DNA of 32,009 bases from Flavobacteriales bacterium. Its GTDB lineage: Bacteria > Bacteroidota > Bacteroidia > UBA10329. The DNA lies in assembly GCA_021739625.1 (NCBI GenBank), contig JAIPBJ010000035.1, positions 1 through 32,009 of the forward strand. Direction: 5' to 3'. The notes under the pieces were generated by a model. It worked only from the letters and a program-made list of their open reading frames with translations, made no database searches and was not told the DNA's origin. Position 1 is the stretch's first letter; every line of letters begins with the position of its first letter. Shown here piece by piece: positions 4,910 through 32,009 of the stretch. The translations under genes and the position numbers were made by a program.

Positions 4910-4911
4910 AC

Positions 4912-8133: not shown

Positions 8134-8160
8134 GGCATGGGATCCTGCCCAAGGGCCGGA

Positions 8161-9852: not shown

Positions 9853-9868
9853 CCCTCCGAAAGAGTCG

Positions 9869-10056: not shown

Positions 10057-10061
10057 GATTG

Positions 10062-11345
10062 ATGCGCATTGAGCAGAAGAACAATAGGGGGCGGTCATGG
10101 ACCATGGCTTTGGGCCTTGCGGTGGTAGGATTCCTATTGCTCCTGTTGACCCGTTGGCTCGGCACCCGTCATTACGGGATGACTGAATCCTGGCAATCGT
10201 TGGTCTTCCATACGGGAATCTTCTTGCTTGTCGCTTCAATGATCCAATGCATAGCGCCCTTGTTCCGTTGGTCTGCCGTGAACACGAGGGTGCTCATCGG
10301 AAGCGTGTGCATGGCGTGGATGGCACTTGAGCTCGCTGTTCGCATGTCCGGTGCGGCTCAGACCTATCCAGAGTTAAGGTCGGGCTTCTATCAGTCGTCC
10401 TATGTCATGGATCAGGACAATCCGCTCAGGGTGAACAATCCATTCGAGAAGCTGATCATCACTGCGCCAGAGTACAGCTTTCCGCGACAGGTGAACACAC
10501 ATGGGTTCAGCGACTTGGAATTCGGAGTGAAGCAGCCCGGGCAGCTGCTCATTCAAACTTATGGTGACTCGTTCACCGAAGGCGATGGCGCTCCTTATGA
10601 TTCGGCCTATCCCACCATTCTGCGCCATATCCTTCAGCAGAATTTCTCGAAAGACATCCTGATTCAGAATTTCGGCATCCGAGGCAATGACCCCGGGTTC
10701 TATTGGAAGCAGCTCCGCGATATTGGGGAGGCAATGAGGCCCGATATCGTAGTGATAAGCTACGGATCGTACGATTACACCACCGATTTTTTTACCCGTG
10801 GTGGATTGTCCAGATTCCATGACGGCCTGTGGAGTGCGCTGCCGGCCCCTTGGTGGGAGTTCATCTATGCCAACAGTCATCTGGTGAGGATCATATTGGA
10901 TATCGCTTTCGATGTGGAGGCACATGCCTTCCTGACCACTCCCGCACAACGGGAAGAACGTCTGCGAGCACTGCGGCCGGCTTGGAATGAGGTGTTCGAC
11001 AGTATAGCCGATCTGGCCCGCAGGGCCGAAGCGCGGGTACTCCTTATCAAGAAACCTGAAAGGAGCGAGATCGATGCCGGGGAATACGAGGAGGATCTCT
11101 CGTTTTTCGACCACTATTTGGAGAAGGACACGTTTTTCAGGCACTTTGACCTGAACGACTACTATCGCTCAGAACGGAAACTCACTGCAGACAGCACATA
11201 TCGCTACTACTGGAAGCACGATGGACATCACAATTCCAAGGGATATGAGCTCATGGCGCAAGGTGTTCATCAGGCCCTCATAAGGAGTTTTCCGGAACGC
11301 TTTGCGCTTCCTGACAGCACCAGCAGAGAAGTTGTTCCACAATAG
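10062..11345 (+). CDS. Membrane-anchored SGNH/GDSL hydrolase
   Basis: A 427-residue protein with three predicted N-terminal helices (about 15-33, 46-68 and 77-97) followed by an SGNH domain. Block I is TYGDSFTEGDG with the nucleophile Ser170. The Gly block is NFGIRGNDPG (203-212). The C-terminal catalytic pair is in HDGHHNSKGYELMA, with Asp387 and His390 as the DxxH dyad. The usual GxND block reads YGSYDY, lacking the Asn. Such proteins remove or transfer acyl esters on glycans; related domains occur at the membrane in O-acetylation systems. A TTG directly precedes the ATG. The gene lies 57 bases upstream of two radical SAM genes on the same strand and probably belongs to the same unit. Confidence 0.75.
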   Translation: MRIEQKNNRGRSWTMALGLAVVGFLLLLLTRWLGTRHYGMTESWQSLVFHTGIFLLVASMIQCIAPLFRWSAVNTRVLIGSVCMAWMALELAVRMSGAAQTYPELRSGFYQSSYVMDQDNPLRVNNPFEKLIITAPEYSFPRQVNTHGFSDLEFGVKQPGQLLIQTYGDSFTEGDGAPYDSAYPTILRHILQQNFSKDILIQNFGIRGNDPGFYWKQLRDIGEAMRPDIVVISYGSYDYTTDFFTRGGLSRFHDGLWSALPAPWWEFIYANSHLVRIILDIAFDVEAHAFLTTPAQREERLRALRPAWNEVFDSIADLARRAEARVLLIKKPERSEIDAGEYEEDLSFFDHYLEKDTFFRHFDLNDYYRSERKLTADSTYRYYWKHDGHHNSKGYELMAQGVHQALIRSFPERFALPDSTSREVVPQ

Positions 11346-11402
11346 TCACCTATGCACTGCCTGCCCACCTGTTTGGTAGTTTAGCCGTCCCAACTCCCGC
11401 CC

Positions 11403-12923
11403 ATGAACCGCTTCATTGAAGGCATCCGCTCCCGCCTCAGCGAGAAAGCTGACCATGAGACAGCTTTGGCGGCAGGCTATGACCCGCTGAACAGGGAGCA
11501 GTATCGCAGGTTCAACCGTTTCAGGCCCGAAGGCCCCAAGCGGCTGTTCTGTTACCTGCCTTTCAACAGCCTCACGTTCTCGTTCAATGGTGAAGTTTAT
11601 GTCTGCTCCTATAACCGGGATGTGGAACTGGGCCATTATCCAGAGAACAGCATCCACGAGATATGGGAGGGTGAGAAGGCCAGACAGTTGCGCCAGCACA
11701 TGCGGCACAACGACCTCAGCTTCGGCTGCCGCCACTGCAAGTTCTTCTTCGACAAGGGCAAGTTCTCCAACCTGCGGCCATTGGTGTTCGACAAGTATCA
11801 CGGTCACACGGACGGAGACCATCCCCGCGTGTTCGAATTTGAGCTGAGCAACACCTGCAACCTCGAATGCCAGATGTGCCATGGCGAAGTGAGCAGCAGC
11901 ATCCGCAAGAACAGGGACCGGCTGCCTCCGTTGGTAAGTCCGTATGATGATGCATTTGTCAATCAGCTCCGCGAGTTCATACCGACTTTGAAAGAGGCCA
12001 AGTTCTATGGTGGCGAGCCGCTCCTTATCCCCATCTATTACAAGATATGGGATGTGGTGAAGGAGCTGAATCCGAAGCTCAACATGTTCGTGATCACCAA
12101 TGGAACGAACTGGAACGACCGCATAGAACGGCTGGTAAATGACCTGAACTTCGATGTGGCCGTGTCCATCGATGCTGCCGAGAAGGAATTGTTGGAAAGG
12201 ATCAGGAAAAATGTGGTCTTTGAGGAGTTGATGGTGAACATCAAGCGGTTCAGCGAGGTCTGCAATCGCAAAGGCAAACATCTTTCGCTGAGCTACACCG
12301 TGCAACGCGACAATTGGCGGCAGTTCCCCAAGATGATCGAGCTGTGCAACGATGTGGGCGCCTACATCTATGTGAGCTATCTGGAGCGTCCGCGCCAGTT
12401 CGCACTGGCCGAGATGGACAGGCCGGACCTGATGCGCATCCGCGAGGAGATGGAGAAGTACGTACCCAGCGCACGGAATGCCAAGGAGCGGCACAACCGC
12501 AACTGTTTCGAGGATTTCAAGGCATATCTGGACAGTTATATCGGCAACGAGGCCGAAAGGCATTATCACGAATATGAGTTCAGCGAGGAACACAGGAAGG
12601 AGGTCGGAGAGCTGAGGGTCGGTTTTCTGAACAGCGTGACACCTGCCGCCAGCGAAGGTCATTTCAGGGATTGGGCCGAGGCCTGCTATGCCACCGATCC
12701 GACACATGAAACAATCTTCAGCAAGGAATCCTTCTTCAACCGGGTGAACGAGGCAACATCCGAACTGACGGACGAAGAGGTCAACATACTGCGGGGGTTC
12801 ATGATGGCGACAGATTTCAGGCAGTTGCTCAAAGGAATCGCCAGCACGGACAATGCCGAACTGGTGGCCAAAGGCCGCGAATCATTGCGTGCATATCGCG
12901 AACGTCAGGGGACGCACGCATGA
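11403..12923 (+). CDS. Twitch-domain radical SAM protein (paralog 1)
   Basis: A 506-residue protein with a permuted arrangement. An N-terminal auxiliary iron-sulfur (SPASM/twitch-like) module has Cys50, Cys68, Cys109 and Cys112, around the pattern NGEVYVCSYN, SIHEIWEG, FGCRHC. It precedes the radical SAM core, whose SAM-cluster motif CNLECQMC contains Cys152, Cys156 and Cys159. Further core motifs are YGGEPLLIP (SAM-binding GGE), TNGT and a SIDAAEKELLERIRKN segment. The C-terminal 150 residues are helical and variable. Relatives usually catalyse radical oxidation, epimerisation or C-C/C-S bond formation; the substrate here is unknown. The next gene overlaps by four bases (ATGA at 12920) and is a paralog, as is the gene at 14367-15941. 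Confidence 0.85.
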   Translation: MNRFIEGIRSRLSEKADHETALAAGYDPLNREQYRRFNRFRPEGPKRLFCYLPFNSLTFSFNGEVYVCSYNRDVELGHYPENSIHEIWEGEKARQLRQHMRHNDLSFGCRHCKFFFDKGKFSNLRPLVFDKYHGHTDGDHPRVFEFELSNTCNLECQMCHGEVSSSIRKNRDRLPPLVSPYDDAFVNQLREFIPTLKEAKFYGGEPLLIPIYYKIWDVVKELNPKLNMFVITNGTNWNDRIERLVNDLNFDVAVSIDAAEKELLERIRKNVVFEELMVNIKRFSEVCNRKGKHLSLSYTVQRDNWRQFPKMIELCNDVGAYIYVSYLERPRQFALAEMDRPDLMRIREEMEKYVPSARNAKERHNRNCFEDFKAYLDSYIGNEAERHYHEYEFSEEHRKEVGELRVGFLNSVTPAASEGHFRDWAEACYATDPTHETIFSKESFFNRVNEATSELTDEEVNILRGFMMATDFRQLLKGIASTDNAELVAKGRESLRAYRERQGTHA

Positions 12924-14377
12924 AGGACAAGCTGCTCAATATCTACAGTCGAATGAGCAGTTCGCTGCGCAACCAGTCGGGACCCGGGCTGCCGGCAAGC
13001 ACGGTGGCCGCCTACAATGCATCGCGGGGAAGGCCGCACTCACGCCATATCTGCCATGCCCCGTTCACCAACATGTATTTCAATGTGCATGGCGACTGCT
13101 CGCCCTGCTGGCTCACCTTCCATGACCCCGATTCCTATCCGAACAGGTCTGTGCATGAGATCTGGTTCGGAGAAAGGTTCCAGAAACTGCGTGAGCGCCT
13201 TCTTCATTTCGACCTGACCCAGAAATGCAGCGTGTGTCTCAAGAATCTGCAGACAGGCAACCACACATCTGTGCTCGCGCGGGCCTATGATGTGAACGAG
13301 ATCAGGGAGTATCCCACCATGCTGGAACTGGAGGTGTCCAACACCTGCAATCTGGAGTGCGTGATGTGCATAGGCGAACTGTCTTCCTCCATCCGCAGGA
13401 ACCGTGAAAAACTGCCCCCGATGGTCAGCCCGTATGATGACGCTTTCGCTGACCAGTTGGAAGAGTTCATCCCTCATCTGCACGAACTGCGTTTCAACGG
13501 AGGGGAACCATTCCTCATTCCGTTGGTTTACAGGATATTTGAGAAGGTGGAGAGGCTCCATCCCAAACTCAAGATCGTGATAGCCACCAATGGAACCGTG
13601 CTCAACAACAAAGTGAAGGACTGGTTGGGGAGACTCAACATCCACATCAATTTCTCGCTCGATTCACTGACGGCCGACATCTATGAGACCATACGCGTCA
13701 ATGCGAAATTCAGCCGGGTGATGGAGAACTTTGACCATCATCATGCCTACTGTCGCGACAATGGGCGCACCATGTGCATCATGGTCAATCCGATGCGCAA
13801 CAACTGGCACGAGATGCCGGAGTTCGTTCGTTTCGCCAATGGCCGCAATGTGAACCTGTGGTTCAACACTATCCATCGCCCAAAGGAGTGGGCCATCTGG
13901 TCTTTGCCCACCGACCAGTTGCGCGATGTTCATGCTACCCTAAATGCTGTGGACTTCGGGACAGAAGCGCGTACATCCATCGGCAGTTTCAACATCGGTG
14001 TCTATCGCAATCTGGCCGATGTGCAGCTGCGCAACTGGCTGCGCGAGGCCGAGGAGCGGGAACATACTGCGGAAATAGCCACACCGGCACTCACTCCCGC
14101 AGAGGCCTCCACCGCGCTCATGGAGAAACTCACCGTGTTCATTGACAACAATTTCGATGAAGGAGTGGAGCAGAAGCAGAACCGCGTGAAGCAGCTTGCC
14201 GAGAAATTGAAGTCCATAGATGCCAAACTGCGTGAGCGCAATGATGATGAGGATTTCTTCGTCAATGCACTGGAGGTCCCGTCAGATGTGCTGTACACGG
14301 GCCTTGAAAGCCGCAGTGTGAACAGCCTTGTAGAGGAATTCGAGAATTGGATGGTACGCAAGGCGGCTACGCGGTGA
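12920..14377 (+). CDS. Twitch-domain radical SAM protein (paralog 2)
   Basis: A 485-residue paralog of the preceding protein, translationally coupled to it by an ATGA overlap. The N-terminal auxiliary-cluster cysteines are Cys45, Cys60, Cys63, Cys103 and Cys106 (HGDCSPCW, SVHEIWFG, KCSVC). The SAM cluster is CNLECVMC with Cys143, Cys147 and Cys150, followed by the shared signature GELSSSIRRNREKLPP, then SPYDDAF, NGGEPFLIP and TNGT. Residues 360-485 form a charged, helical tail with coiled-coil character (EKQLAEKLKSIDAKLRERND-like composition). The 3' end overlaps the end of the convergent third paralog by 11 bases. Having two coupled paralogs suggests either sequential reactions or a heteromeric enzyme. 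Confidence 0.85.
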   Translation: MKDKLLNIYSRMSSSLRNQSGPGLPASTVAAYNASRGRPHSRHICHAPFTNMYFNVHGDCSPCWLTFHDPDSYPNRSVHEIWFGERFQKLRERLLHFDLTQKCSVCLKNLQTGNHTSVLARAYDVNEIREYPTMLELEVSNTCNLECVMCIGELSSSIRRNREKLPPMVSPYDDAFADQLEEFIPHLHELRFNGGEPFLIPLVYRIFEKVERLHPKLKIVIATNGTVLNNKVKDWLGRLNIHINFSLDSLTADIYETIRVNAKFSRVMENFDHHHAYCRDNGRTMCIMVNPMRNNWHEMPEFVRFANGRNVNLWFNTIHRPKEWAIWSLPTDQLRDVHATLNAVDFGTEARTSIGSFNIGVYRNLADVQLRNWLREAEEREHTAEIATPALTPAEASTALMEKLTVFIDNNFDEGVEQKQNRVKQLAEKLKSIDAKLRERNDDEDFFVNALEVPSDVLYTGLESRSVNSLVEEFENWMVRKAATR

Positions 14378-15941
14378 ACTTGGCAAATGCTTGCTGAAGG
14401 TCCTCAATGCTCTGGTTCAACAGAACGGTTGCCAGCTCCATGGGCGGTGCAGCGGCCATCTGTCGGAGAACGGCCGGTGCGTGGCCGCTTGTCAGCATCA
14501 TCGCAGCAATGGCCGCAACCTTCGCCCGGGTATCCTCGGTTCCAGGCAGGTCTTCCAAATGCCAGTAGGCCACCGGATACTGCATCAGGGCAGCGGTAAG
14601 ATCGCCCTCTGCGGCTGCGAGCAGCATGCCCGCAAGCTCGGCCTGTTTCTGGTGTTCGCAATCAAAATCTCCCGTCCTGCCCATTTCCACCAGATCGAGG
14701 ATGGTGGAAAGGACCGCCTCCTCAGACCAGTTGTCGGCCTTTGGCACGACCACTGATGCCGGCAGCGTTGCCCTTGCCCTTGCCACTTTGGCCTCCTTCT
14801 CTGCCAATAATGTCTTGCGCTCCGCGATCCACCCTTCCAGCAGTTTTATGAAGTCGTTGTAGGCCCTGATACTGAGATTGCGGGCGCTTCGCCCTCGTCC
14901 AGTCTCCTTTGGTGCAGGATGCTGCTTCAAGAAGGCGATGATGCGCTCCTGATCTTCCAATGGCTGTTCGCGCAGTGACAGCTCCACCGGAGTGAACACT
15001 GCATTCAGATAGAGCGAAACGCCTCTGTCGATGCAGAACTGGAGCATCTCTGGCAACTCGTGCCAATTATGGGTGATGGGGCAGGCGGCCATGGAAATGA
15101 ACGTGCCCTTTCGCTCGGCATAGGTGCGGAAATACTCCAGGTTGGCCATTACCCGGTCGAAATCCCCATTCACGCGAATCCTATTGTAAGTCTCACGGTT
15201 CACCGAATCGCAACTGAGGATGATACCGGCCGTTAGCCCCTCCAACAGTTCTTTGACGCGGTCGGTGAGCAAGGTCCCGTTGGTGGTGATGTGGATGCGC
15301 ATATTCGGGTTCACCTTGCGGATGCGCTCCCAGATCTTCAGATATACGTCTATCATGAACGGCTCGCCACCAAGGAATTTCGCGTCTGTGAGATGAGGCA
15401 GGAACTCCTCCAGTTCGTCCACGAACCGGTCATCATAAGGCGATTCGAGTGCGGGCAGCTTTTCCCTGTTCTTGCGGATGGATGAGGAGAAGTAACCGTT
15501 GCACATCACGCATTCGAGATTGCAGCGGTTGCTAAGTTCAAACTCCATCACCTTCGGGTATCCGATGTGCCCCGTCATCCGATGGCGAAGATATCCGATG
15601 GCAGTACCGATGCCATTGGGGGCGTACTCATCAGAATTTCTGGCCCTGACGCCATGGTGATTTCCGGCCACGATCATGCTGCCACACTCACTGCAACCGC
15701 CTCCAAGCTCATCTTCCCTTATCCATTGCCTGAGCTGCTCGGCCTCCTTGCTCCGCCAGATTTCCCCGATGCGCTGCTCCGGCCATTTGCCCAGCACGTG
15801 TTTGAAGTTGTAGCAGCACGCCCGAACATTGCCGTTCTGCTCGAAGTTGAGGCTTACGAACGGTGCATGGCAGATGATGGGCCTGTACGTTCCGCTGCGG
15901 GATGCCGCATATTCGGCCTTGGCCTTTTCGGGGAGTCTCAT
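14367..15941 (-). CDS. Twitch-domain radical SAM protein (paralog 3)
   Basis: A 524-residue third paralog on the opposite strand. The auxiliary module contains Cys24, Cys42, Cys43, Cys83 and Cys86 (NVRACCYN, IGEIWRS, GCSEC). The SAM cluster CNLECVMC has Cys140, Cys144 and Cys147, followed by GYFSSSIRKNREKLP, SPYDDRF, LGGEPFMID and TTNGT. The C-terminal 180 residues are Ala/Glu-rich helices unlike the tails of the other two. It is the last gene of the minus-strand block, 29 bases after the two-domain glycosyltransferase. Its 3' end overlaps paralog 2 tail to tail by 11 bases. The strong conservation of the core but not the tails suggests related chemistry on different substrates or partners. 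Confidence 0.85.
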   Translation of the reverse strand: MRLPEKAKAEYAASRSGTYRPIICHAPFVSLNFEQNGNVRACCYNFKHVLGKWPEQRIGEIWRSKEAEQLRQWIREDELGGGCSECGSMIVAGNHHGVRARNSDEYAPNGIGTAIGYLRHRMTGHIGYPKVMEFELSNRCNLECVMCNGYFSSSIRKNREKLPALESPYDDRFVDELEEFLPHLTDAKFLGGEPFMIDVYLKIWERIRKVNPNMRIHITTNGTLLTDRVKELLEGLTAGIILSCDSVNRETYNRIRVNGDFDRVMANLEYFRTYAERKGTFISMAACPITHNWHELPEMLQFCIDRGVSLYLNAVFTPVELSLREQPLEDQERIIAFLKQHPAPKETGRGRSARNLSIRAYNDFIKLLEGWIAERKTLLAEKEAKVARARATLPASVVVPKADNWSEEAVLSTILDLVEMGRTGDFDCEHQKQAELAGMLLAAAEGDLTAALMQYPVAYWHLEDLPGTEDTRAKVAAIAAMMLTSGHAPAVLRQMAAAPPMELATVLLNQSIEDLQQAFAKFTA

Positions 15942-15970
15942 CAGTATAATCCGCTAACTGCTGGTTTCAT

Positions 15971-17962
15971 TCAAAGGAACGTCTTTTCAAGCCGTCTGGA
16001 CCACTCCGCATTCCTCCATTCATTCTTGGTCCTCTCCCAGCGGCTTTCAGGAATCTCGAACAGCCCGTGCTTGGCCATCAGCTTGGCCAGGGCGGACCGA
16101 TGATAGAAGTCAGCGCGATTCACATTCCGTGTGCGCCATTCCTCATTCTGCCAATGGATGAAAAGCCATTGTTCGGGAATCTCATCCTCCTTCCAGATGA
16201 ACCGGGATGTAATGTCCCAGCGGTCGTGGTTGCTTACTTCCCTAGAGATGTATCCCTCCAATCCGAGTTCGCAGATGTTGTCATTCAAGATGCGGATGGG
16301 CCGAAGCCAGTCGGTGTTCTCCGCGTTCACCTCTATCATGGCCTGATCGTAACACATTTTCATCAGTTCAGATCCCGCTGGGCATTTCATCACATTGCCC
16401 ACCACTGGCAGGTCGTGATGCGGGCGGAAAAAATAAGGTCTATCAGTGAAGATGGGCCGCAGACATGTAATGTCCATATCCGTCCACCAGCCGCCCCGTT
16501 CATAAAGCAGCCTATAGCGGAAAATGTCGCTGAAACCCGCATAGCTGCCCTTGCCGTGACCGAATGCGTTCTTCTTGCGGTAGCAGAAGACCTCATCTTT
16601 GGGAATGATCTCTGATGCATCGGCAAGTAACACGCCTGCGGGCAGCGGAGTCTCCAAATGTTCATACGCCCATAGCCTGAAAACATGCCCCTGTGAAATA
16701 TGAGAGTTGATGGTCAGCAGTTCCACTGCGCTGAGCCGATTGCCTATCCAGAGCGCGTTGAAGATCTGCCGTTCTGGGTGTAGGCTTATCCCCGTCCGTT
16801 CCTCCACCGCCTGCCAAACGTCCCATTGTGCATCGCCCCAGTGGTGATATACATGGATGAAATGTGGAGAGACCTTTTCATTCGGTTCTTCAAGCGTGAA
16901 CCGCAGACCACCATGGTGAATGATGCGGTCGTGTGCATGGTCGGCAATCAGATTGAAGGCCGAAGGCAGCACAGGTGCATCCTGAAGCCCCATTTCCCAA
17001 ACAGTGGAAATAAGAGTGCCCTGATCGCGGGTCTTCCATTCTGGAAGACCGAAGATGCGTGCCGTGCGGTCGTGCCACATGTCGAGAAAGTCATGACTGC
17101 GGCCATCGAACAGGAACACACCTCCATTCCAATGGTGCCAGTCTGCTGTGGCCACCTCTGTGCCAAAAGTGGTCTCGATCTGTTGTCGCAGATGGTCGCA
17201 TTTGCAGTCGAACACTTCCTTTCCATTGATGGTCCACAAGTGGCCGTTCGATGTGTCGCAGCGGTAGTCGGTCGAAGCCTCAATACGGGCGATGGCACTG
17301 TCCTCCCTTTCATAGAGCACTGCCCGTCCTGCACTGTTGCGCCACAGTCCCTCATCTTTATGCAGCACGAACTCATCGTTCAATTCAAACCTTTTCCGCG
17401 CAAGCCAGAATCGCACAGTGAGCCATGTATATGAAAGGCGGTCTTTTTTGATGTCGATGAACAGTTGCTCCAATCGCACCTTCAATCCAGCATCCTCCTC
17501 TTCGCGCTCAAGATGGTGGTATCTTTTGAAAAGCCCCTTCAGTTCCTTCTCCCACGCTGCAAACTGATGGATGCAGCCACAGTTGACGGCCGATGGACTG
17601 AACTTGTCCATGCGGCAGTGATCACGGGCAAAGGTGATTGGGGCTGCATAGTGCTCGAATATCCCGTCAACCTTGTCCGAAAGTGCGACCACATCGGTGT
17701 CGAGGTAGCAGTACAATGGGCCTTCAGGAAGATAGCGGTGCAGCGAGGTCTTGAGCCAGATACTGGCCTGATGGTGGTCGAGATGATCGGGCGTGCGCAC
17801 ATCAACCACTTGGTTGTGAGAGATGGCGATCGCATTGCGGCTTCGGTCGGTGACCACAATGATGTTGCTGCGCGAAAACTTCCGAAGCGCCTCCAGAGAG
17901 TAGTTCAGCGCAGCAATGTGCTCCTCTGCCCCGCAGACCACGAAAACGAAGGTGCCTTTCAT
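15971..17962 (-). CDS. Two-domain glycosyltransferase (GT8-like plus GT32-like)
   Basis: A 663-residue fusion. The N-terminal domain (about 1-370) begins with a GT-A Rossmann-like strand and has YLDTDVVAL (87-95) as its DxD metal site, then HWNGGVFLFD and RDQGTLI as in GT8-like transferases. A roughly 130-residue insertion separates the two parts of this domain. The C-terminal domain (about 375-663) has the GT32/capsular mannosyltransferase signature FRYRLLYERGGWWTDMDI, with Asp495 and Asp497 as DxD. It likely adds two sugars from nucleotide-sugar donors in succession. It is a cytoplasmic protein with no membrane helix visible. A degenerate heptamer repeat lies in the 102-base gap before it. 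Confidence 0.75.
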   Translation of the reverse strand: MKGTFVFVVCGAEEHIAALNYSLEALRKFSRSNIIVVTDRSRNAIAISHNQVVDVRTPDHLDHHQASIWLKTSLHRYLPEGPLYCYLDTDVVALSDKVDGIFEHYAAPITFARDHCRMDKFSPSAVNCGCIHQFAAWEKELKGLFKRYHHLEREEEDAGLKVRLEQLFIDIKKDRLSYTWLTVRFWLARKRFELNDEFVLHKDEGLWRNSAGRAVLYEREDSAIARIEASTDYRCDTSNGHLWTINGKEVFDCKCDHLRQQIETTFGTEVATADWHHWNGGVFLFDGRSHDFLDMWHDRTARIFGLPEWKTRDQGTLISTVWEMGLQDAPVLPSAFNLIADHAHDRIIHHGGLRFTLEEPNEKVSPHFIHVYHHWGDAQWDVWQAVEERTGISLHPERQIFNALWIGNRLSAVELLTINSHISQGHVFRLWAYEHLETPLPAGVLLADASEIIPKDEVFCYRKKNAFGHGKGSYAGFSDIFRYRLLYERGGWWTDMDITCLRPIFTDRPYFFRPHHDLPVVGNVMKCPAGSELMKMCYDQAMIEVNAENTDWLRPIRILNDNICELGLEGYISREVSNHDRWDITSRFIWKEDEIPEQWLFIHWQNEEWRTRNVNRADFYHRSALAKLMAKHGLFEIPESRWERTKNEWRNAEWSRRLEKTFL

Positions 17963-18017
17963 GAACTGGAAGAGGAGTGATTGGCCGAAGACGACAGACA
18001 GACTCCGTTCGGCCCGA

Positions 18018-18045
18018 CCTTGAACATTGATTCTTGAATCCTGAA
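18018..18045. repeat. Degenerate heptanucleotide repeat, four copies
   Basis: CCTTGAA, CATTGAT, TCTTGAA and TCCTGAA follow each other in a 7-base period. The repeat lies in the 102-base gap between the amidotransferase gene and the two-domain glycosyltransferase. On the minus strand it falls within a 29-codon frame (18048-17959) whose stop overlaps the transferase start as ATGA. Confidence 0.6.
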
Positions 18046-18064
18046 CATTTCCACACTTGCAATT

Positions 18065-19909: not shown

Positions 19910-19911
19910 GG

Positions 19912-21920: not shown

Positions 21921-21996
21921 TGCAGCCGTGTTGGATCCCTTACTGGACAAAGAACGTGAATGCCGCCTGAACAGATATCCCCATTGGCAATTCCGG

Positions 21997-23613: not shown

Positions 23614-23640
23614 GATGCCCTGTTAGCTCCTTTCTTCATT

Positions 23641-26409
23641 TCACTTGAGCTGGCTCAGTCTTTCTCTGAATTCCGCTGTCTTTTCCACATTGCCCATCGT
23701 CTCATAGGTGTGTGCGATGTTCTGATAAGGGTCCCGCCAAGCAGGATTGTAGGAAATGGCACGCTCATTCACCGCAATGGACTCCACGTACATCCCAGAC
23801 CTGAAATACAGGTAGCTAAGGTTGTTGTATGCCTCAAGCATTTCGGGGTTGAACCTGATGCAGCGTCCATAGTATTCGATGGCAGTGACGTTGTCACCCA
23901 ATTGATCGGAAATGACTGCTGCATTCAGCGTTGCATCATAGAACGTGGAGTCCAGTCTATGCGCCTCCTTGAAGCATGACAGTGCGTTCTGTGGCTCGTT
24001 CAGGATCTGATAGACCCGCCCGAGGTCATACCACGCGTTGAAGAACTCAGGCCAGATCCTCACCGCCTGTTTGAAATGTCCGAGCGCCTCGCGCCTCATG
24101 TCCATGGCCTCACGGGCATATTCGGGCCCGAACGAATTCTTCATCAGGTGAGAGGCCAGCAGGTTGTGTGCCTGTGCTGAATTGGGAACGTGTTCGAGGT
24201 CGTTCCGCATAAGGGTGAGCGCATCCTTCCACTGTAGGCTTCTGGCGAGGGTCAGCCCCGAAAGGGATACCAACAGTAGGATCGCTCCCATTGTCAGGAC
24301 CTTACGGGCACGCGGACCTACAACCATTTCATATAGCCATGATAACAGATATCCGACTGCAATGCAGAAACCGAAGGAGGCCACGTAGGTGAGGCGGTCT
24401 CCGATCATGCCAGCGACTGGGCCTATCAGATTGGAGAACAGGAATATGGATGACAGGTAGGCAAGAATACCAAAGGAGAGCATCGGTCTGCATATGGCAA
24501 AGAATATGGCACATAACAGCAACAGCAGATGAACCGCGACAGAAGTGATGGCCCAAGGGTCTTTCATGTTTGCAATCCGCACCTCATCGAATCCATAATA
24601 GAATGACTGAGGCCACGGCATCACCATCATCGTCAGGTAGTGGCCGAGTACCAGCGATGCTGTTCCGAGTCGCGTGGACAGCCCCGCCTCCGTATCAAGA
24701 GGATACTCTGCATAGGTCAGTGGGCGGTCTTCCAGCGAAGTGGATACAGAGACTTCAGCAATCTTCGGTGCAGTCTCAGGCCGTGGGGCCATGGGTGTTT
24801 CTTGAAGTGTGTGGCCGGTCGGAGAGGGAGCAAGAAGTTCGTCCCCTCCCAGTACCACAAAAGCATAGGAGATGGTGATGAGCAAGGCCAGTGCTAACTC
24901 CAGTTTCCGGGAACGTCTGTCATCTGAATCCGTGAGATGGAGATACAGGGCGACAAGTGCAATGAAGGACAAGACAAAATCCAATGTGAAGTCGCTTACG
25001 ACTGACTGTATCCCCAAGGCCAGCATGACCCACAGCAAAGGCCTGAGGGCCCGCTTTTCAGCAAGCTTATGCCTATAGATGTAGATGACCATCAATGGCA
25101 GGATCGGCCATAGCGAGATGAATTTCAATATCAGCCATGGACTGGCCTTCAAGTCAATGCGATGCCACAGCGAAACGGTGGCAGGCCAGTCGCTCAGAAG
25201 CCCGTAGGCGGTGAGGCACAGGAAGAACATGGCCGCACAGCAAGCCAGGAAAGTGCGTGTGGTCCTGCCTCCGTCCCTAAGCACAACCGCCAGATAGATC
25301 AGCATCAGATAGCCGCTGGCCTCCACATCGACCATCAGAAAGGACGACAGCACCAGAACTGCAAGCAGAATCATGCCTGAGCCACTGTGTCGGCCCGTCC
25401 AGTACGGCCCAAACAGAATGAAAAGCAGTGGAAAGGCGAGAACAGCCATCTGCGCAGTGACAAGGGAAATGATCAGCGCAACTGCCGTCAGCCCGATGAG
25501 CACCGCGTCCCAACGGGTCCTGGGCAACCAATGCGTCATTGCCATAATTGAGGTTTCAGGCCATTTCCGTGGAAAAACCTCCCTGACCATCTTTGCCCAT
25601 TCCACGCTCTTTGCCCATTTCCAGAGTATGAGCCCTAATAACAGCAGGAACATGGTGCCGACCGGCAGCGTGAACCACGACAGCTGCCATTCACGCAAAT
25701 GGAAATATACCGCCAATGCAACACCTGAAGTGGTCATCAAAAGCAAGGACCTTGAGGGTCGAAACGCGAGCATGACCGATGAAAGCGGAATCATCAGAAG
25801 AAAAGGCGCAGCGGAGCTCTTAGACAGCAGAGAGAGCAGCATAAGCAGCACAACCAGTGGCAACCGCCACCATCTCCCCTCAGCATTGAACCTCCACGCA
25901 TTGCCCATGGCCAACATGGCGAATAGCAGGGCCAATATCTCATCGCGGTTCTTGATGCTGGCCACCACCTCCGTGTGCATCGGGTGAGTGGCGAACAATA
26001 GCGTGGCGAGCATTGGAAATAGGGATGCACCAGGAGACATTCTGCCGAGCAGGCCGAACATCACCAGACATGAAAGGCCATACAGCAGGGCGTTGAGCAC
26101 ATGTCCAGAACGCGCAGTGCCACCAAAGAACTGATGCTCCAACGCGAAGGATATGTGTGTGACAGGCCGATACTCATAGCTGTAGCCCATGGCATCCTCA
26201 TAATAGGGCGAGGTGAGAATCTTCCGGATGCCAGAAACGCCCTGCGAAACGAGGCTGTGGCCGTTTGTCACCAGCTCATCGTCCATATTGAAGGAGTGGT
26301 TGAAGGTGACCGCATATAGGCCAACGGCCAGCAGGAACAGCATCATTCCGATCCGGTTCCGAAACTTTGGGTCCGAGATGCTGAAAGCCGTAATGAGCTG
26401 CTGTTTCAA
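23641..26409 (-). CDS. TMTC-like GT-C glycosyltransferase with TPR domain
   Basis: A 922-residue protein. Residues 20-680 hold many membrane helices, with an acidic NMDDELVTNG loop (41-50, Asp43 and Asp44) after helix 1, then a loop with HPMHTEVVASIKNRDEIL. These fit the TMTC/GT105-type GT-C fold, in which eukaryotic members O-mannosylate proteins from dolichol-phosphate mannose. Residues 743-922 are at least four tetratricopeptide repeats (for example AWYDLGRVYQIL, AYNNLSYLYFRSG, YQNIAHTYETMG). The start appears to be TTG 26409, since an in-frame stop lies just upstream; ATG 26346 is an alternative at the edge of helix 1. It is 12 bases downstream of the GT8-like gene. A lipid-linked sugar donor is likely; the acceptor is unknown. 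Confidence 0.75.
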   Translation of the reverse strand: MKQQLITAFSISDPKFRNRIGMMLFLLAVGLYAVTFNHSFNMDDELVTNGHSLVSQGVSGIRKILTSPYYEDAMGYSYEYRPVTHISFALEHQFFGGTARSGHVLNALLYGLSCLVMFGLLGRMSPGASLFPMLATLLFATHPMHTEVVASIKNRDEILALLFAMLAMGNAWRFNAEGRWWRLPLVVLLMLLSLLSKSSAAPFLLMIPLSSVMLAFRPSRSLLLMTTSGVALAVYFHLREWQLSWFTLPVGTMFLLLLGLILWKWAKSVEWAKMVREVFPRKWPETSIMAMTHWLPRTRWDAVLIGLTAVALIISLVTAQMAVLAFPLLFILFGPYWTGRHSGSGMILLAVLVLSSFLMVDVEASGYLMLIYLAVVLRDGGRTTRTFLACCAAMFFLCLTAYGLLSDWPATVSLWHRIDLKASPWLILKFISLWPILPLMVIYIYRHKLAEKRALRPLLWVMLALGIQSVVSDFTLDFVLSFIALVALYLHLTDSDDRRSRKLELALALLITISYAFVVLGGDELLAPSPTGHTLQETPMAPRPETAPKIAEVSVSTSLEDRPLTYAEYPLDTEAGLSTRLGTASLVLGHYLTMMVMPWPQSFYYGFDEVRIANMKDPWAITSVAVHLLLLLCAIFFAICRPMLSFGILAYLSSIFLFSNLIGPVAGMIGDRLTYVASFGFCIAVGYLLSWLYEMVVGPRARKVLTMGAILLLVSLSGLTLARSLQWKDALTLMRNDLEHVPNSAQAHNLLASHLMKNSFGPEYAREAMDMRREALGHFKQAVRIWPEFFNAWYDLGRVYQILNEPQNALSCFKEAHRLDSTFYDATLNAAVISDQLGDNVTAIEYYGRCIRFNPEMLEAYNNLSYLYFRSGMYVESIAVNERAISYNPAWRDPYQNIAHTYETMGNVEKTAEFRERLSQLK

Positions 26410-26421
26410 GGCGGGGTGCGG

Positions 26422-27342
26422 TCAGAGAATGCCGGCCTGTTCCATCCTGCGGACGAACAGCCAGACCAGATGCCGAAGATATGCGCGGACATCAGATGCT
26501 CGAAGTCTGGTTTCCTGCTTGACGGAGTAACCCTCATTCCATTTGTGGAGGAGGGACTCATAGTGCTCAAGATGCGGCCGCATGAGCGGGTCTCCGCCCC
26601 GCAGAATGGTTCTGAAGGTGAATGCGTTGAAGTGAATGCACACCAGCGGCCATTGTCCATTGAGCATCAAATTTCCTTCACTGTCAAGCATCCTCTGAAC
26701 CATGTGCGTATTCCAACCGGCCACGTTGCAGCCACGGTGCCGAAGAATCCCCGTTTCGGGAAAGATCACTGGCACAAGGTCCAGATATTTCTGGTCATCG
26801 AACAGGCCGCGCCATGCCGACTGCTTCACGTTGTAGGCACAGCAGTCTGCCCACCAACGCAGCGCATCCTCGGCCCCTGAGGCCGCAGCAACCAGACCTG
26901 CATTGTAGAGCCCGACCCGGAAATTGGCCTCCAACCAGAATTGCTCGCGCTGTGGATCGGCCGGATAACAGTGGGGTGTCAGCAGCAGACTGTGCGCGTG
27001 GAGCGCATCGAATATGGGAGACGGGGAACCGAAGAAACACATGTCGTTGTCCGCATAGACCACCTGCGCATATCCCTCTGCAAGTAGATGCAGCAAAAAA
27101 AGGGGCTTACAGGCCCACCGGAGTTCATTTCCACCATGGCGGGCCTTGATGCGCTCCATCATCGCAGAAGGCATATCGGTCAACAAGTGAAAAGTGATGC
27201 CGTCCACTGCCACAGGCTTTCCGTCATCTTCCATCACCAGACAATGGAACTCGGCATCGGTCCTTTCATCCAGACTGTCGTGCACGGCCATCACCTTGAA
27301 CAGGTGGCTCCGGGTGGTGATGGTGCAAATGGCCTTTCTCAT
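26422..27342 (-). CDS. GT8-like glycosyltransferase
   Basis: A 306-residue cytoplasmic transferase. Starting at ATG 27342, it opens with RKAICTITTRSHLFKVMAV, typical of putative GT-A domains acting on nucleotide sugars. The DxD-type site is VVYADNDMCFFGSP (94-107; Asp98, Asp100). YNAGLVAA, FDDQKYLDLVPVIFPE and CNVAGWNTH are further GT8-like signatures. An in-frame extension upstream of 27342 was excluded because a TTCCTTTG promoter-like box precedes that ATG. It begins the long minus-strand block ending with the third radical SAM gene. Confidence 0.8.
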   Translation of the reverse strand: MRKAICTITTRSHLFKVMAVHDSLDERTDAEFHCLVMEDDGKPVAVDGITFHLLTDMPSAMMERIKARHGGNELRWACKPLFLLHLLAEGYAQVVYADNDMCFFGSPSPIFDALHAHSLLLTPHCYPADPQREQFWLEANFRVGLYNAGLVAAASGAEDALRWWADCCAYNVKQSAWRGLFDDQKYLDLVPVIFPETGILRHRGCNVAGWNTHMVQRMLDSEGNLMLNGQWPLVCIHFNAFTFRTILRGGDPLMRPHLEHYESLLHKWNEGYSVKQETRLRASDVRAYLRHLVWLFVRRMEQAGIL

Positions 27343-27352
27343 GTGCTCAGGG

Positions 27353-27360
27353 CAAAGGAA
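27353..27360 (-). promoter_or_regulatory. Putative -7 box TTCCTTTG of the long minus-strand operon
   Basis: TTCCTTTG is one base off TAnnTTTG and lies 10 bases before ATG 27342. The 125 bases between this gene and the divergent hydroxylase gene (27343-27467) must hold the control of both blocks. Confidence 0.4.
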
Positions 27361-27467
27361 CGCAGACCGTGGCAATTGCGCATGGCACCAACATACCGGT
27401 CGTCCTCCCACCAATTGATCACACGCCACTACTACGTTGCCAATCCAATGCTAAATTCACCGCCACA

Positions 27468-28226
27468 ATGACAGCCGACAAGCCCACACCTGTATTCTTT
27501 CTGTCGGAGGACGACCGGTATGACGGTCCCGAACCCTATTTCTATGACAGTGCCAAGTTCCCTTGGGCAAAGCAGCTGGAAGACAACTGGCGAGTGATCC
27601 GTGATGAAATGGCCCCATATATCGATGGCCACATGTCGTTCAGTCTGTCCAGCCCCAACCCTCCCTACCTGTCAGACCCGCAGGCGTGGAAGAACATTTA
27701 CTTCTGGAACTTCCTATGGAAATATCACCCCAATTGCAAGAAGTATCCGGCCACATTCAAGTTGTTGAGTTCGATTCCCGGGCTCACCTTTGCGGAGTTC
27801 ACTGTGCTGGAACCGCACTCGCGGGTGCTGCCCCATATCGGTGAGACCAACACCACCATCCGTGGTCATCTGGGCGTCTCCATTCCTGGCACACTTCCCG
27901 ATGCAGGCATCCGTGTGGGCGATCAGGAACGGTCGTGGGAGGATGGAAAGACCGTGCTCTTCAGCGACTGTCATCGCCACACGGTGTGGAACGGGACAAG
28001 CGGCAGGCGCTTCGTACTGGTGTTCGATGTGATGCGCGATGAGTTCGTGGCCCGAAAGTACTGGATGTGCGCACTGTCGCTCTCTGCACTCACGATCAAG
28101 TACTTCGATTCGAGGTGGGATCTGCTTCACCGTCTTCCCAAATGGCTGCTCAGGGCCAAGCACAGGGCCATCGCGGTGCTTTGGTACCTGTATCTGCCAT
28201 TGCAGAACCGGTTGCCGTTGCCATGA
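27468..28226 (+). CDS. Aspartyl/asparaginyl beta-hydroxylase family protein
   Basis: A 252-residue iron- and 2-oxoglutarate-dependent oxygenase of the AspH/LpxO group. The iron-binding pattern HxG...H is seen as LPHIGETNTTIRGHLGVS (His123, Gly125) and CHRHTVWNGTSGRRFVLVFDVMR (His171). Arg181 or Arg182 corresponds to the 2-oxoglutarate-binding Arg. Like AspH, the family's usual Asp ligand is replaced by Gly. Relatives hydroxylate protein Asp/Asn residues or the acyl chain of lipid A. ATG 27468 is chosen over earlier in-frame codons because the conserved region begins well after it and an operon start is expected there. It is divergent from the GT8-like gene and followed after 45 bases by the radical SAM pair. 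Confidence 0.8.
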   Translation: MTADKPTPVFFLSEDDRYDGPEPYFYDSAKFPWAKQLEDNWRVIRDEMAPYIDGHMSFSLSSPNPPYLSDPQAWKNIYFWNFLWKYHPNCKKYPATFKLLSSIPGLTFAEFTVLEPHSRVLPHIGETNTTIRGHLGVSIPGTLPDAGIRVGDQERSWEDGKTVLFSDCHRHTVWNGTSGRRFVLVFDVMRDEFVARKYWMCALSLSALTIKYFDSRWDLLHRLPKWLLRAKHRAIAVLWYLYLPLQNRLPLP

Positions 28227-28256
28227 GATGTCCCGCAGCAGGCATTTTCCTGCGGC

Positions 28257-28264
28257 TACCTTTG
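28257..28264 (+). promoter_or_regulatory. Putative -7 box TACCTTTG before the B12-radical SAM genes
   Basis: TACCTTTG matches TAnnTTTG exactly and ends 7 bases before ATG 28272. It would allow the two radical SAM genes to be transcribed apart from the hydroxylase gene. Confidence 0.45.
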
Positions 28265-28271
28265 CGCGTGT

Positions 28272-29852
28272 ATGACCCCCTCAGAAAGAACGTTCAGGGT
28301 TTGTCTTGTCAATCCGCCTGTAATAGCGGTAATCGAACCGTGGTATGATACACCCCCGTTCGGACGCACAGCTTTGGCCTATCTGGCCGGCTACCTGAGG
28401 CAGTTCGATGGGTTTGAGGTGAGCATCATAGATGCTAAGTTCGAAAGGCTCAGCTTCGATGCCACCATGGCAAGGATTGCGGAGCTGAAGCCCGATGTGG
28501 TGGGACTCACCGCCTTCACCAACGAGATAAAGCCTGCTGCCTTCCTCGCGCATCTCGTCAAGATGGAATTGCCCGAATGCATTACCGTGGTGGGCGGGCC
28601 GCATGTCACGGCCATTCCGCAGGAGACCTTGGCCGAGTTCCCTTCATTCGATATGGGCGTGGTGGGCGAGGGCGAAGTAACCTTCCATGAACTCTGCACA
28701 GCTCTGCGGAGCAGAACGGAATTGGAGCCGGTCAAAGGCATCGCTTACAGGAAGCATGGAACAATCATGCAGACTGCGCCCCGCGAACGCATCCTCGATC
28801 AGGACTGCATCCCCTTCCCAGCATGGGATCTGCTGCCACGCGCATCCACCTACTTTATCCAGTCGGTGCGTGGATGCCCGTTCAACTGCCTTTTCTGCAT
28901 GAACCCCAGTGGCCGTGTAGCACGCAAGCGCAGTGTGGCCAATGTGATGAAGGAATTGCAATGGGTCATCGATGAGTTCAGTCCAGAGCGCATCAGTTTC
29001 GGGGATGAGCTCTTCAGCGTTGACATGCAGCGCACAGCCCTACTGCTTGATGCCATGGCCGACAGCGACATCGGCCACCGTGTGCGCTGGGATGTGCAGA
29101 CCCACGTGCAGTTCGTTGACAGGCCTCTTTTCAGGAAATTCAAGCGGGCAGGGGTGGAGCGCGTGGAACTGGGCGTGGAGACCGGTGATGAGCAGTCGCT
29201 TAAAGGCATGGGCAAGGGAACGACCCTCAAGATGATACACTGTGCCTGTAAGGCCGCCAAGGATGAGGGCGTGACCATCGGCACATTCTTCCTCTTCGGC
29301 CAGCCCAACGAGACGCCCGAAAGTCTCGAAAAGACCGTTGATCTGGCCGTGAAACTCAACCCGAATCTGCCCATGTTCGGCCTTATGACGCCCTACCCAG
29401 GAACAGAAGTGGCCAGCATGGCCGCCAAGGGCGAGGGAGGCTATAGGCTGCTGACCACAGACTGGGACCAGTATAACAAACAGATAGGTGGGGCCATGGC
29501 CTTTGCGGGCCTAAGCAGGGCACAGATCGAGTGGTTTCAGGTAATGGCCTATCTCAAGGTCTATATTTACAACCACAGATTCCGCGACCTTGCCGCATTT
29601 TTGTGGGAGTATCGCAAAGCAGGCATGGAGGTGATGAAGAAGATTGTTTTCCGCAGGAATACACTGACCGGGGCGCAGCAACGTCCTGTGGGCTATGACG
29701 CCTTCTTCGCAGGGTCGGCTGCGCCAGATATGAAGGTCATGGAGGCATCGCGCACCAACTGGAACCGTACCCAGCAGCGCGAACTGAAACGCGCCAAGGA
29801 ACTTGCTCCCGAACTCTTCACCAGCATCAGGACCCATGCAGAGGTGCGATAG
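28272..29852 (+). CDS. B12-binding-domain radical SAM enzyme 1
   Basis: A 526-residue protein. Residues 1-170 form a cobalamin-binding-like Rossmann domain (VCLVNPPV, DVVGLTAF, VVGGPHVTAIP, MGVVGEGE). Residues 190-420 form the radical SAM core with RGCPFNCLFC (Cys202, Cys206, Cys209), DELFS, GVETGDEQSLKGMGKG and a FLFGQPNETPES segment. The classic DxHxxG cobalamin motif is not visible, which is common in this family, so B12 dependence is not certain. Such enzymes methylate unactivated carbons or rearrange lipids and sugars, as in hopanoid and antibiotic pathways. The stop overlaps the next gene by 17 bases, so the two are probably translationally coupled. Confidence 0.85.
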   Translation: MTPSERTFRVCLVNPPVIAVIEPWYDTPPFGRTALAYLAGYLRQFDGFEVSIIDAKFERLSFDATMARIAELKPDVVGLTAFTNEIKPAAFLAHLVKMELPECITVVGGPHVTAIPQETLAEFPSFDMGVVGEGEVTFHELCTALRSRTELEPVKGIAYRKHGTIMQTAPRERILDQDCIPFPAWDLLPRASTYFIQSVRGCPFNCLFCMNPSGRVARKRSVANVMKELQWVIDEFSPERISFGDELFSVDMQRTALLLDAMADSDIGHRVRWDVQTHVQFVDRPLFRKFKRAGVERVELGVETGDEQSLKGMGKGTTLKMIHCACKAAKDEGVTIGTFFLFGQPNETPESLEKTVDLAVKLNPNLPMFGLMTPYPGTEVASMAAKGEGGYRLLTTDWDQYNKQIGGAMAFAGLSRAQIEWFQVMAYLKVYIYNHRFRDLAAFLWEYRKAGMEVMKKIVFRRNTLTGAQQRPVGYDAFFAGSAAPDMKVMEASRTNWNRTQQRELKRAKELAPELFTSIRTHAEVR

Positions 29853-31272
29853 GATTCTGCTGCTAAACCTGCCGGGCAAGGAGCAGATAACGCGCAGGTA
29901 CATGTGCTCTTATGTGTCACCAGAAAGCCTGCTGCCGCCCGTTGAACTCATCTCTATGGCCGCTGTGGCAAGAGAGTGGAAGGGCGCACACGTATTGCTT
30001 GTCGATTCCATGGCGGAGCGGCTGGACGAGGCGGCAGTGCGAAGCCGCATCACCGCATTCGCACCGGACATCATCGTGAGCCTCTCGGGCTTCGAGTGCT
30101 ATGAAGAGGACATGGACACGCTTCGTGGTCTCAAGTCTGCTTTCCCCAACACCCTTTTCTTACTGTTCGGCCACTATGCCACTCATTTCCCCAAGGAAAC
30201 GCTCATTCATTCGGCCACGGACTACATCCTATTGGGCGAGCCCGAGCTCATCTTCTCCGACCTGTTGGACGCCTTCAAGGGCCAGCACGACCTGAAGGAT
30301 GTGCAGGGCATCGTATATCGCAGCGGCACCGAGGTGCTGGTGCAGGGCACAGGCACCCGCATACCCGACCCCAACGCGCTGCCCATGCCGGCCTACGACC
30401 TGCTGCCTAAAGGCAGGCGCTATTACGAGCCGCTGATGGCCGAGCCCTTCGGCATGATACAGACCGCACGCGGATGTCCTTATCAGTGCAACTACTGTGT
30501 GAAATCGTTCGGTACCAAACTCACAACACTGACCCCGCAGCGCATTGTGGATGAAATGAAGGAGTGGAAACGGCTCTTCAATGTAAAGTCCATCCGCTTC
30601 ATTGACGACACCTTCACCATCACCCGTGCACGGGTCATAGAGCTCTGCCAACTGATGATAGCCGAGAAGCTGAACTTGGAATGGGCCTGCCTGAGCCGAA
30701 CCGACAACCTCGATGCCGAGCTGCTGCAATGGATGCGCAGATCCGGTTGCAAACGCATCTATTTCGGTATGGAGTCTGGCAGCCAGCGCATGTTGGACAT
30801 CTATAGGAAACAAGTGAATGTGGATGAGGCGCGCGCTGCGCTGCTCCTGTGCCGTGAGGCAGGCATAGAGACCGCTGCCTTCTTCATGTCGGGCCACCCT
30901 GAAGAGACCGAGGAGGATTTTGAGCTAACAGTGAACTTCGCGCGCAGCGCAAAACTCAACTTCGCATCGTTCAATCCGCTGACGCTCTACCCGGGCACAG
31001 CCATCTTTCGTGAGATGAACGGAAAGGTCAACTTCTCTATTTATCCCTACAGCAACGATTGGAAGGACTCGTCCATTTATGACGATTTCACCCGAAGGAA
31101 GAAGCGCTTCTATCGCAAGTTCTATATGCGACCCTCCTTTCTTCTTTCGAGCGCTCGTCTATTTCTCAGCAGTCCTGCCAGCATTGCCCAAATGGGCATT
31201 GGCCTGATGCGCTATCTGTGGTGGGACAGCAAGTTCGTCATCTCTGGCCTCAAAGGGGCGCGCGATGCCTGA
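29836..31272 (+). CDS. B12-binding-domain radical SAM enzyme 2
   Basis: A 478-residue relative of the preceding gene, starting at ATG 29836 inside its last 17 bases. The N-terminal Rossmann domain has ILLLNLPG, DIIVSLSGFECYEED, FLLFGHYATHFPKE and ILLGEPEL. The core has ARGCPYQCNYC (Cys214, Cys218, Cys221), RFIDDTFTITR, FGMESGSQRMLD and FMSGHPEETEED. The C-terminal segment (about 400-478) is basic. The DxHxxG motif is again missing. Two coupled homologous enzymes suggest successive modification of the same substrate. The gene ends three bases before the convergent sugar amidotransferase. Confidence 0.85.
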   Translation: MQRCDRILLLNLPGKEQITRRYMCSYVSPESLLPPVELISMAAVAREWKGAHVLLVDSMAERLDEAAVRSRITAFAPDIIVSLSGFECYEEDMDTLRGLKSAFPNTLFLLFGHYATHFPKETLIHSATDYILLGEPELIFSDLLDAFKGQHDLKDVQGIVYRSGTEVLVQGTGTRIPDPNALPMPAYDLLPKGRRYYEPLMAEPFGMIQTARGCPYQCNYCVKSFGTKLTTLTPQRIVDEMKEWKRLFNVKSIRFIDDTFTITRARVIELCQLMIAEKLNLEWACLSRTDNLDAELLQWMRRSGCKRIYFGMESGSQRMLDIYRKQVNVDEARAALLLCREAGIETAAFFMSGHPEETEEDFELTVNFARSAKLNFASFNPLTLYPGTAIFREMNGKVNFSIYPYSNDWKDSSIYDDFTRRKKRFYRKFYMRPSFLLSSARLFLSSPASIAQMGIGLMRYLWWDSKFVISGLKGARDA

Positions 31273-31275
31273 GCT

Positions 31276-32009
31276 TCAATCCCCGCAGTTGAAATACTTG
31301 TCGTAAACGATCTCGGGCATGAAGCCCAGCTTCGTGGCAATGCGGATGCCCGGGCGCAGCCACAGCATCAACCCATATCCCGTCTCATAATCGCGAAAGG
31401 TCTTGGGCGGCAGGGCCATCCATGCTTCGAACTGCTCGCGGGTGATGGCAAGCCGCTTGAGGCAGAGGTCTATGATGCGAGGGTCTTCCATCACATAGGG
31501 CTTCTTCACCGCCTCTATGGCATAATCGCGATCCATCTGCCCATCACGGATTAGCGCACTGTAGGCATTGATACGGAAGTCGATGTTGAATTTCACCCTG
31601 TGCACGTAAGTGATGAGCGCCCAATAGAGGTCATCGAAATAGTGCGCTCCGGGATATACCCAGCCATATTCGCGGGTCAGCAGATCATCGGCCTCCTTGC
31701 GCACATAGTTCTCATAGTACAGGGGCGAATGGGCGCGGTGGCCTTTCAGGATGCTGTAATAGAAAAGTTCCTTCCAACCGAGGCGATAGTTGGGGTCATC
31801 GGCCTTCCAGGGGCGCAGCGGCACAGAGCCGAATTTCTGCTGCACATCTTCCACATAGTCGCCCACCATGAACGACCAGCTCATGGGCTTTATGCCCTCG
31901 GTGCGGAAGCTCTGCCCATAGAGCAGATGTTTCACGCCTTCCTTGTGCGCCACGCCATAGCACGAGGCGGCTATGCCCACATCCGTGCCCTCGTTCAGCT
32001 CTGGCACCG
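31276..32009 (-). CDS. N-acetyl-sugar amidotransferase (WbpG/PseA-like), N-terminus beyond window
   Basis: The minus strand is open to the right edge, so the 244 visible residues are the C-terminal part. KHLLYGQSFRTEGIKPMSW, REYGWVYPGAHYFDDLY and KFNIDFRINAYSALIRDGQM are close to the C-terminal region of the WbpG/PseA family. In that family an ATP-PPase domain, usually with separate HisH/HisF-like partners, converts an N-acetyl sugar to an acetamidino sugar, as in B-band O-antigen and pseudaminic acid derivatives. The N-terminal SGGxDS loop lies beyond the window and cannot be checked. HisH/HisF-like genes would be expected upstream, off the right edge. Confidence 0.75.
   Translation of the reverse strand, partial: VPELNEGTDVGIAASCYGVAHKEGVKHLLYGQSFRTEGIKPMSWSFMVGDYVEDVQQKFGSVPLRPWKADDPNYRLGWKELFYYSILKGHRAHSPLYYENYVRKEADDLLTREYGWVYPGAHYFDDLYWALITYVHRVKFNIDFRINAYSALIRDGQMDRDYAIEAVKKPYVMEDPRIIDLCLKRLAITREQFEAWMALPPKTFRDYETGYGLMLWLRPGIRIATKLGFMPEIVYDKYFNCGD

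Follow-up and report, generated by a model that had tools for sequence, protein, structure and literature searches.

Contig JAIPBJ010000035.1 of a Flavobacteriales bacterium, analysed here over its complete length of 32,009 bp (the window; G000:C38 of a 3.69 Mb draft genome that is 96% complete), carries a core gene cassette that is recurrent among Bacteroidota and previously undescribed. On one strand, the cassette has the order methyltransferase (MT), UbiA-fold membrane enzyme, AsnB-type amidotransferase (in part of the loci), GT32-type glycosyltransferase (GT; one or two genes) and twiC, which encodes a radical S-adenosylmethionine (SAM) enzyme with a twitch domain; it is convergent with the paralogous radical SAM genes twiB and twiA, often with an SGNH-fold gene, on the other strand. 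It lies among fifteen closely packed genes that run from position 10059 to the contig end (Table 1). Gaps between same-strand neighbours range from -5 to +102 bp and are mostly below 60 bp, which bears out the dense packing described in a first-pass annotation made from the sequence alone. That annotation treated the neighbourhood, with five radical SAM enzymes, as one unit. It is not one unit but a conserved core with variable accessories: the three twitch enzymes belong with MT, UbiA and GT32 in the conserved cassette, whereas the genes that it called B12-type vary among relatives.

A twitch-family scan of 84,980 species genomes yielded 74 loci, with flanks of at most 10 kb, whose genes were compared with those of the window. 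Contig ends truncate several of these loci, and some loci are close relatives of one another (for example L028 and L033, or L031 and L032). The cassette is found, whole or in part, in 17 further loci, all from Bacteroidota metagenome-assembled genomes, with gene order and strands kept; one of these (L034) belongs to a sister species (G008). A search for the same gene set in other Bacteroidota, which the first-pass annotation had proposed, thus recovers the synteny of the core in these 17 loci but finds the accessories scattered. Pairwise identities across the cassette loci are 50-95% for twiC (median 56%), 25-80% for UbiA (median 34%) and 46-98% for MT. In the window, twiC and twiB share 11 bp at their 3' ends, and an overlap of 4-17 bp is kept in 15 of the 17 loci; twiA and twiB of the window overlap by 4 bp. 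MT adjoins UbiA in most UbiA loci, SGNH follows twiA in several relatives, and the two-domain GT of the window is split into two genes in L027, L028, L029, L033, L062 and L064.

Within the scan, MT is present in 18 of 24 loci with UbiA versus one of 50 without it, and GT32 in 20 of 24 versus eight of 50. A second arrangement of UbiA and twitch genes occurs in L036-L038 and L061, and looser associations of the two in L045, L052, L054, L058, L077 and L082. L058 comes from the cultured Taishania pollutisoli CZZ-1 and has twiC, MT, UbiA and AsnB close to Wzm/Wzt. The modules can also stand apart: twiA-twiB-SGNH, twiC and MT-UbiA-AsnB are each separate in some loci (L070, L072, L041 and L013), L070 and L072 having SGNH-twiA-twiB without twiC and UbiA, and the sister species has a second MT-UbiA-AsnB-GT set that adjoins ubiB and is without twitch enzymes. 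A ubiB gene (window 8161-9882; L013:17791-19482) flanks both the window cluster and this second cluster, perhaps marking the same chromosomal site. The families are rare, and their density in the window greatly exceeds chance: the only strong twitch-family members in the window genome are the three paralogues, and at E ≤ 1e-60 the family is found in none of 394 other sampled Bacteroidota genomes; the UbiA clade is found in six of 395 evenly drawn ones. In a phylum-wide linkage test, family members were too few among the 395 sampled genomes for co-occurrence to be measured. Searches of the open-access literature on radical SAM enzymes, UbiA and polysaccharide loci (subscription papers and preprints lay outside this scope) turned up neither a description of the cassette nor a characterized pathway with this combination of genes, in agreement with the first-pass annotation.

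The three twitch-type radical SAM paralogues listed in that annotation are present, with the SPASM/twitch domain at the N-terminus. Phylogenetic analysis of 130 proteins places twiA, twiB and twiC in three separate clades with a support of 100 each; the trio is thus old and has stayed together. The Pfam order is SPASM followed by Radical_SAM with a CxxxCxxC motif (intact in all five radical SAM proteins of the window), which is the domain layout of NF033640 (N_Twi_rSAM). With a cut-off of 170 bits for this model, twiA scores above and twiB and twiC slightly below; the products share with NF033640 proteins an N-terminal twitch followed by the radical SAM core, and differ from them in this narrow shortfall and in forming orthologue groups bound to a fixed cassette. 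Exactly seven cysteines are invariant over 42 sequences, three in CxxxCxxC and four N-terminal (C24, C42, C83 and C86), and the latter correspond to the four-cysteine auxiliary cluster of a BtrN-type twitch. In profile comparison the counterpart of the N-terminal domain is the twitch at the C-terminus of BtrN (E = 6e-12); the domain order is therefore permuted relative to BtrN. BtrN, the twitch radical SAM dehydrogenase of butirosin biosynthesis (PDB entry 4M7T), has a four-cysteine auxiliary cluster and performs a two-electron oxidation of an aminocyclitol (PMC9012708). Both have a twitch with the four cysteines of such a cluster beside a radical SAM core, but the Twi proteins have the twitch before the core, a long C-terminal helical extension and three paralogues per locus. 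By analogy with BtrN, we infer that the Twi enzymes oxidize or epimerize sugars.

The UbiA-fold protein of the window carries the motifs N[DE]xxDxxxD and HxxxDxxxD, and most members of its family share the longer motif N[DE]xxDxxxDxxAGKxN. Its AlphaFold2 (AF2) model (pLDDT 90) aligns with ApUbiA (PDB entry 4od4) with a Z-score of 19.0 and an r.m.s.d. of 3.4 over 263 residues, so both the fold and the two Asp-rich motifs of the UbiA superfamily are present. The membrane PRTase 8j8j is likewise among the hits of this fold search (Z = 15.2), so structure alone cannot settle the type of UbiA enzyme. Phylogenetically, the clade stands apart from the phosphoribosyl-type UbiAs (the two clades having supports of 99/100 and 100/99) and from the housekeeping UbiAs. 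Assignment as a phosphoribosyl-type enzyme (DPPRS/PPPRS) was considered and rejected: the protein falls outside the NF008978 clade, and one of 24 members reaches that model, at E = 0.003. Members of the clade adjoin GT4 or GT2 genes in five of five distant Bacteroidota genomes. Fusions of UbiA with GT4, 761-767 residues long, occur in two species of one genus (L017:8843-11146 and L018:7014-9299). In several loci (L013:9969-13836, L136:3051-5079 and L137:4163-7404), paralogous pairs of proteins of about 340 residues that have no Pfam match separate UbiA from a TMTC-like gene.

Among solved structures, the closest profile match of the window MT is RebM, a sugar O-methyltransferase. The solved relatives RebM and AprD4 act on sugars, in support of a role of the locus in sugar modification. 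AsnB probably amidates a uronic acid. Its gene contains a perfect 7 bp tandem repeat, ATTGATG (4.6 copies; 18641-18672), in a loop insertion that has no counterpart in homologues; 397 kb from the same genome held no heptamer array with four or more copies. Because adding or losing a single unit would put the gene out of frame, AsnB might be phase-variable. Solved-structure searches with the SGNH protein and the two-domain GT gave no match.

Family searches confirmed nearly all of the enzyme labels in the first-pass annotation, the exception being one of its two B12-domain radical SAM enzymes. The protein encoded at 28272-29852 has the B12-binding domain; that at 29836-31272 has only a radical SAM match, and Pfam found no B12-binding domain in it. 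The nearest solved relative of the latter is AprD4, a radical SAM diol dehydratase, although its 110.8 bits against the AprD4 equivalog model are far below the cut-off of 500. Only four of the 17 cassette genomes have a close relative of this B12-binding protein, and its gene adjoins the cassette in the sister species alone. The carbamoyltransferase, WbuX, AspH and TMTC-like genes likewise differ among loci. Of 33 UbiA loci, 13 have a TMTC-like gene nearby; in the twitch-family scan such a gene occurs in ten of 24 loci with UbiA versus three of 50 without (p = 0.0004). WbuX, the last gene, is truncated by the contig end and reaches 70.5 bits with TIGR03573 (cut-off 203); it is 81% identical to a full-length gene in L022 and has an 81% match in L015. 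In these two species WbuX adjoins a CN_hydrolase gene (L015:417-2488 and L022:2232-4258), whose product might supply ammonia instead of HisH/HisF. The 'at least three' glycosyltransferases of the annotation amount, by domain count, to two in one protein, one in another and a probable GT-C. Positions 1-9882 of the window hold genes unrelated to the cluster, including aroB-aroA-aroC and ubiB, and a 42 bp unit array (5.8 copies) lies in a low-GC stretch there (2106-2387).

Table 1. Genes of the window from position 10059 to the contig end (support values for twiA, twiB and twiC are SH-aLRT)
Feature	Position	Strand	Evidence
SGNH/GDSL-fold protein, three N-terminal hydrophobic segments	10059..11345	+	Pfam Lipase_GDSL_2 E 4e-8; GDS and DxxH motifs
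twiA, radical SAM with N-terminal twitch	11403..12923	+	NF033640 176.9 bits; clade of 21, support 100
twiB, radical SAM with N-terminal twitch	12920..14377	+	NF033640 156.7 bits; clade of 21, support 100
twiC, radical SAM with N-terminal twitch	14367..15941	-	NF033640 165.6 bits; clade of 20, support 100
Two-domain glycosyltransferase, GT-A-like (DTD) and GT32 (DMD)	15971..17962	-	Pfam Gly_transf_sug E 2e-6; motifs
AsnB-type glutamine amidotransferase	18065..19909	-	Pfam Asn_synthase E 9e-72; TIGR01536 443.7 bits; N-terminal Cys2
UbiA-fold membrane enzyme, glycan-associated clade	19912..21069	-	Pfam UbiA E 4e-11; AF2 model; clade 99/100
SAM methyltransferase (MT), RebM-like	21069..21950	-	Profile, best solved match RebM 3bus E 1e-24
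NodU/CmcH-type carbamoyltransferase, accessory	21997..23613	-	Pfam Carbam_trans_C E 1e-56; some relatives only
Polytopic protein with C-terminal tetratricopeptide repeats (TPRs), TMTC-like layout, probable GT-C, accessory	23641..26409	-	TPRs at ~770-920; 14 hydrophobic segments
GT-A-like glycosyltransferase, DND motif, accessory	26422..27342	-	DxD; resembles genes in relatives; no Pfam match
AspH/LpxO/OlsC-family 2-oxoglutarate hydroxylase, accessory	27468..28226	+	Pfam Asp_Arg_Hydrox E 2e-35; OlsC model 109 bits (cut-off 450)
B12-binding radical SAM protein, accessory	28272..29852	+	Pfam B12-binding E 3e-23, Radical_SAM E 3e-20
Radical SAM protein, AprD4-like, accessory	29836..31272	+	Pfam Radical_SAM E 4e-22; AprD4 6fd2 E 7.5e-27
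WbuX/WbpG-type N-acetyl sugar amidotransferase, N-terminus cut, accessory	31276..32007	-	TIGR03573 profile positions 143-343 only

The view of the locus as glycan-decorating is well supported. In relatives the cassette is surrounded by PhyH oxygenases, SGNH proteins, GT2 and GT4 enzymes, UDP-glucose dehydrogenase and Wzm/Wzt-type genes. Wzt- or Wzm-type genes lie within about 10 kb in roughly one third of the UbiA loci and 17-20 kb away in L022 and in the sister species, where Wzt is found ~20 kb past WbuX; the ABC exporters of L147 (an ABC_membrane fusion) and L149 were not counted as Wzt. Directly before Wzt in the sister genome are tandem PhyH-family dioxygenase paralogues (L015:15939-20000 and L130:1-1967). 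As the window is a whole contig, the lack of a visible Wzx, Wzy or exporter in it does not imply a pathway without them. On balance we favour the reading that these genes belong to a region, built around the core cassette, in which a heavily modified surface polysaccharide is made, with a Wzm/Wzt-type ABC transporter as the probable exporter. The annotation had named a surface glycan, a protein-linked glycan and a lipid-linked aminosugar product; the Wzm/Wzt-type genes near the cassette in several relatives favour the first over the second. Some relatives share exporter-type genes, GTs and late modifying enzymes with known loci for ABC-exported O-polysaccharides, but the exporter is outside the window and is not near the cassette in all of them. 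Several points weigh against this reading. Many cassette loci have no Wzt/Wzm within 10 kb, and in one genome nothing matches Wzt at E ≤ 1e-40; accessory counts may be too low because the flanks stop at 10 kb. For the Twi enzymes, the BtrN match is limited to the twitch domain, and a fold search with the AF2 model of twiC (pLDDT 91) was generic, the best structural neighbours of its radical SAM core being BlsE, viperins and SuiB, tied at Z = 13-14.

In such a surface polysaccharide region, each of the three Twi enzymes would hold one four-cysteine auxiliary [4Fe-4S] cluster in the domain moved to the N-terminus and would abstract hydrogen at a sugar carbinol as BtrN does, leading to oxidation (or epimerization). 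AsnB would convert a uronic acid to its amide, the RebM-like enzyme would O-methylate, and the GT32-type enzymes would assemble the chain. UbiA, with both Mg-binding Asp motifs intact, could prenylate a glycosyl or phosphate acceptor; the lipid-linked intermediate may be the base on which the sugars are built or the donor for transfer by the GT-C. In the window species, accessory enzymes may add carbamoyl (CmcH type), hydroxyl (AspH) and methyl (B12 radical SAM) groups, deoxygenate (AprD4-like) and introduce an amino or amidino group (WbuX). More tentatively, it is possible that the glycan-associated UbiA clade makes a new class of prenyl-linked sugar and that the three permuted BtrN-like enzymes act serially on the sugars of that pathway, which would be an oxygen-independent route to sugars undescribed in bacterial surface glycans.

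The closest published logic is that of Citrobacter youngae O1/O2, in which a three-component system adds pentofuranose to the O-polysaccharide in the periplasm (PMC11127046). UbiA and the TPR-tailed membrane protein could be parts of such a Kelly-Whitfield-type side-chain system, in which polyprenyl-phosphate-pentose is made from phosphoribosyl pyrophosphate, flipped and used by a GT-C to modify the exported polymer. Logic and setting match (a UbiA-fold enzyme and a GT-C-like protein in an O-polysaccharide context), the TMTC-like gene is enriched with UbiA as given above, and a putative flippase-like LPG_synthase_TM gene adjoins UbiA in the sister species, the only genome in which one was seen. 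The window UbiA belongs to another clade, however, neither a PPPRS nor a phosphoribose phosphatase domain was seen, and the radical SAM trio and RebM-like MT are additions; moreover, the GT4 fused to UbiA is of cytoplasmic type, which is more in keeping with an acceptor than with a periplasmic donor. We regard this explanation as unlikely, though likelier than the other alternatives. It is improbable that the product is a diffusible small molecule, aminoglycoside-like or a prenylated glycoside: relatives such as BtrN, AprD4, RebM and CmcH are antibiotic-tailoring enzymes, and the nearest solved relatives come from antibiotic pathways, but no gene dedicated to resistance or to small-molecule export was recognized in the window, and GT32, GT2, GT4, GT-C-like and Wzm/Wzt genes surround the cassette.

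Independent sugar-modifying modules may instead have been gathered in polysaccharide regions by frequent gene exchange, with no functional unit at all. The separability of the modules and the differences in accessories between loci are what this would produce; gene order and overlapping convergent 3' ends that persist at ~50% identity make it quite improbable. SPASM/twitch radical SAM enzymes usually modify peptides, and the radical SAM core has family-level matches to peptide maturases and to SuiB. A ribosomally synthesized and post-translationally modified peptide (RiPP) system is nevertheless very unlikely here, as all of the stronger neighbours are glycan enzymes, the single four-cysteine auxiliary cluster is N-terminal rather than part of a C-terminal two-cluster SPASM, and no precursor-like gene was recognized (short open reading frames were not systematically scanned).

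There is almost no description of radical SAM enzymes acting on surface polysaccharides, no paper on them having been found in the open-access literature, and the characterized UbiA enzymes of glycan loci found there are phosphoribosyl transferases. With defined genes in a fixed order and with Taishania pollutisoli as a cultured carrier of a reduced version, the cassette offers a system in which the roles of both radical SAM and UbiA enzymes in such glycans can be addressed.

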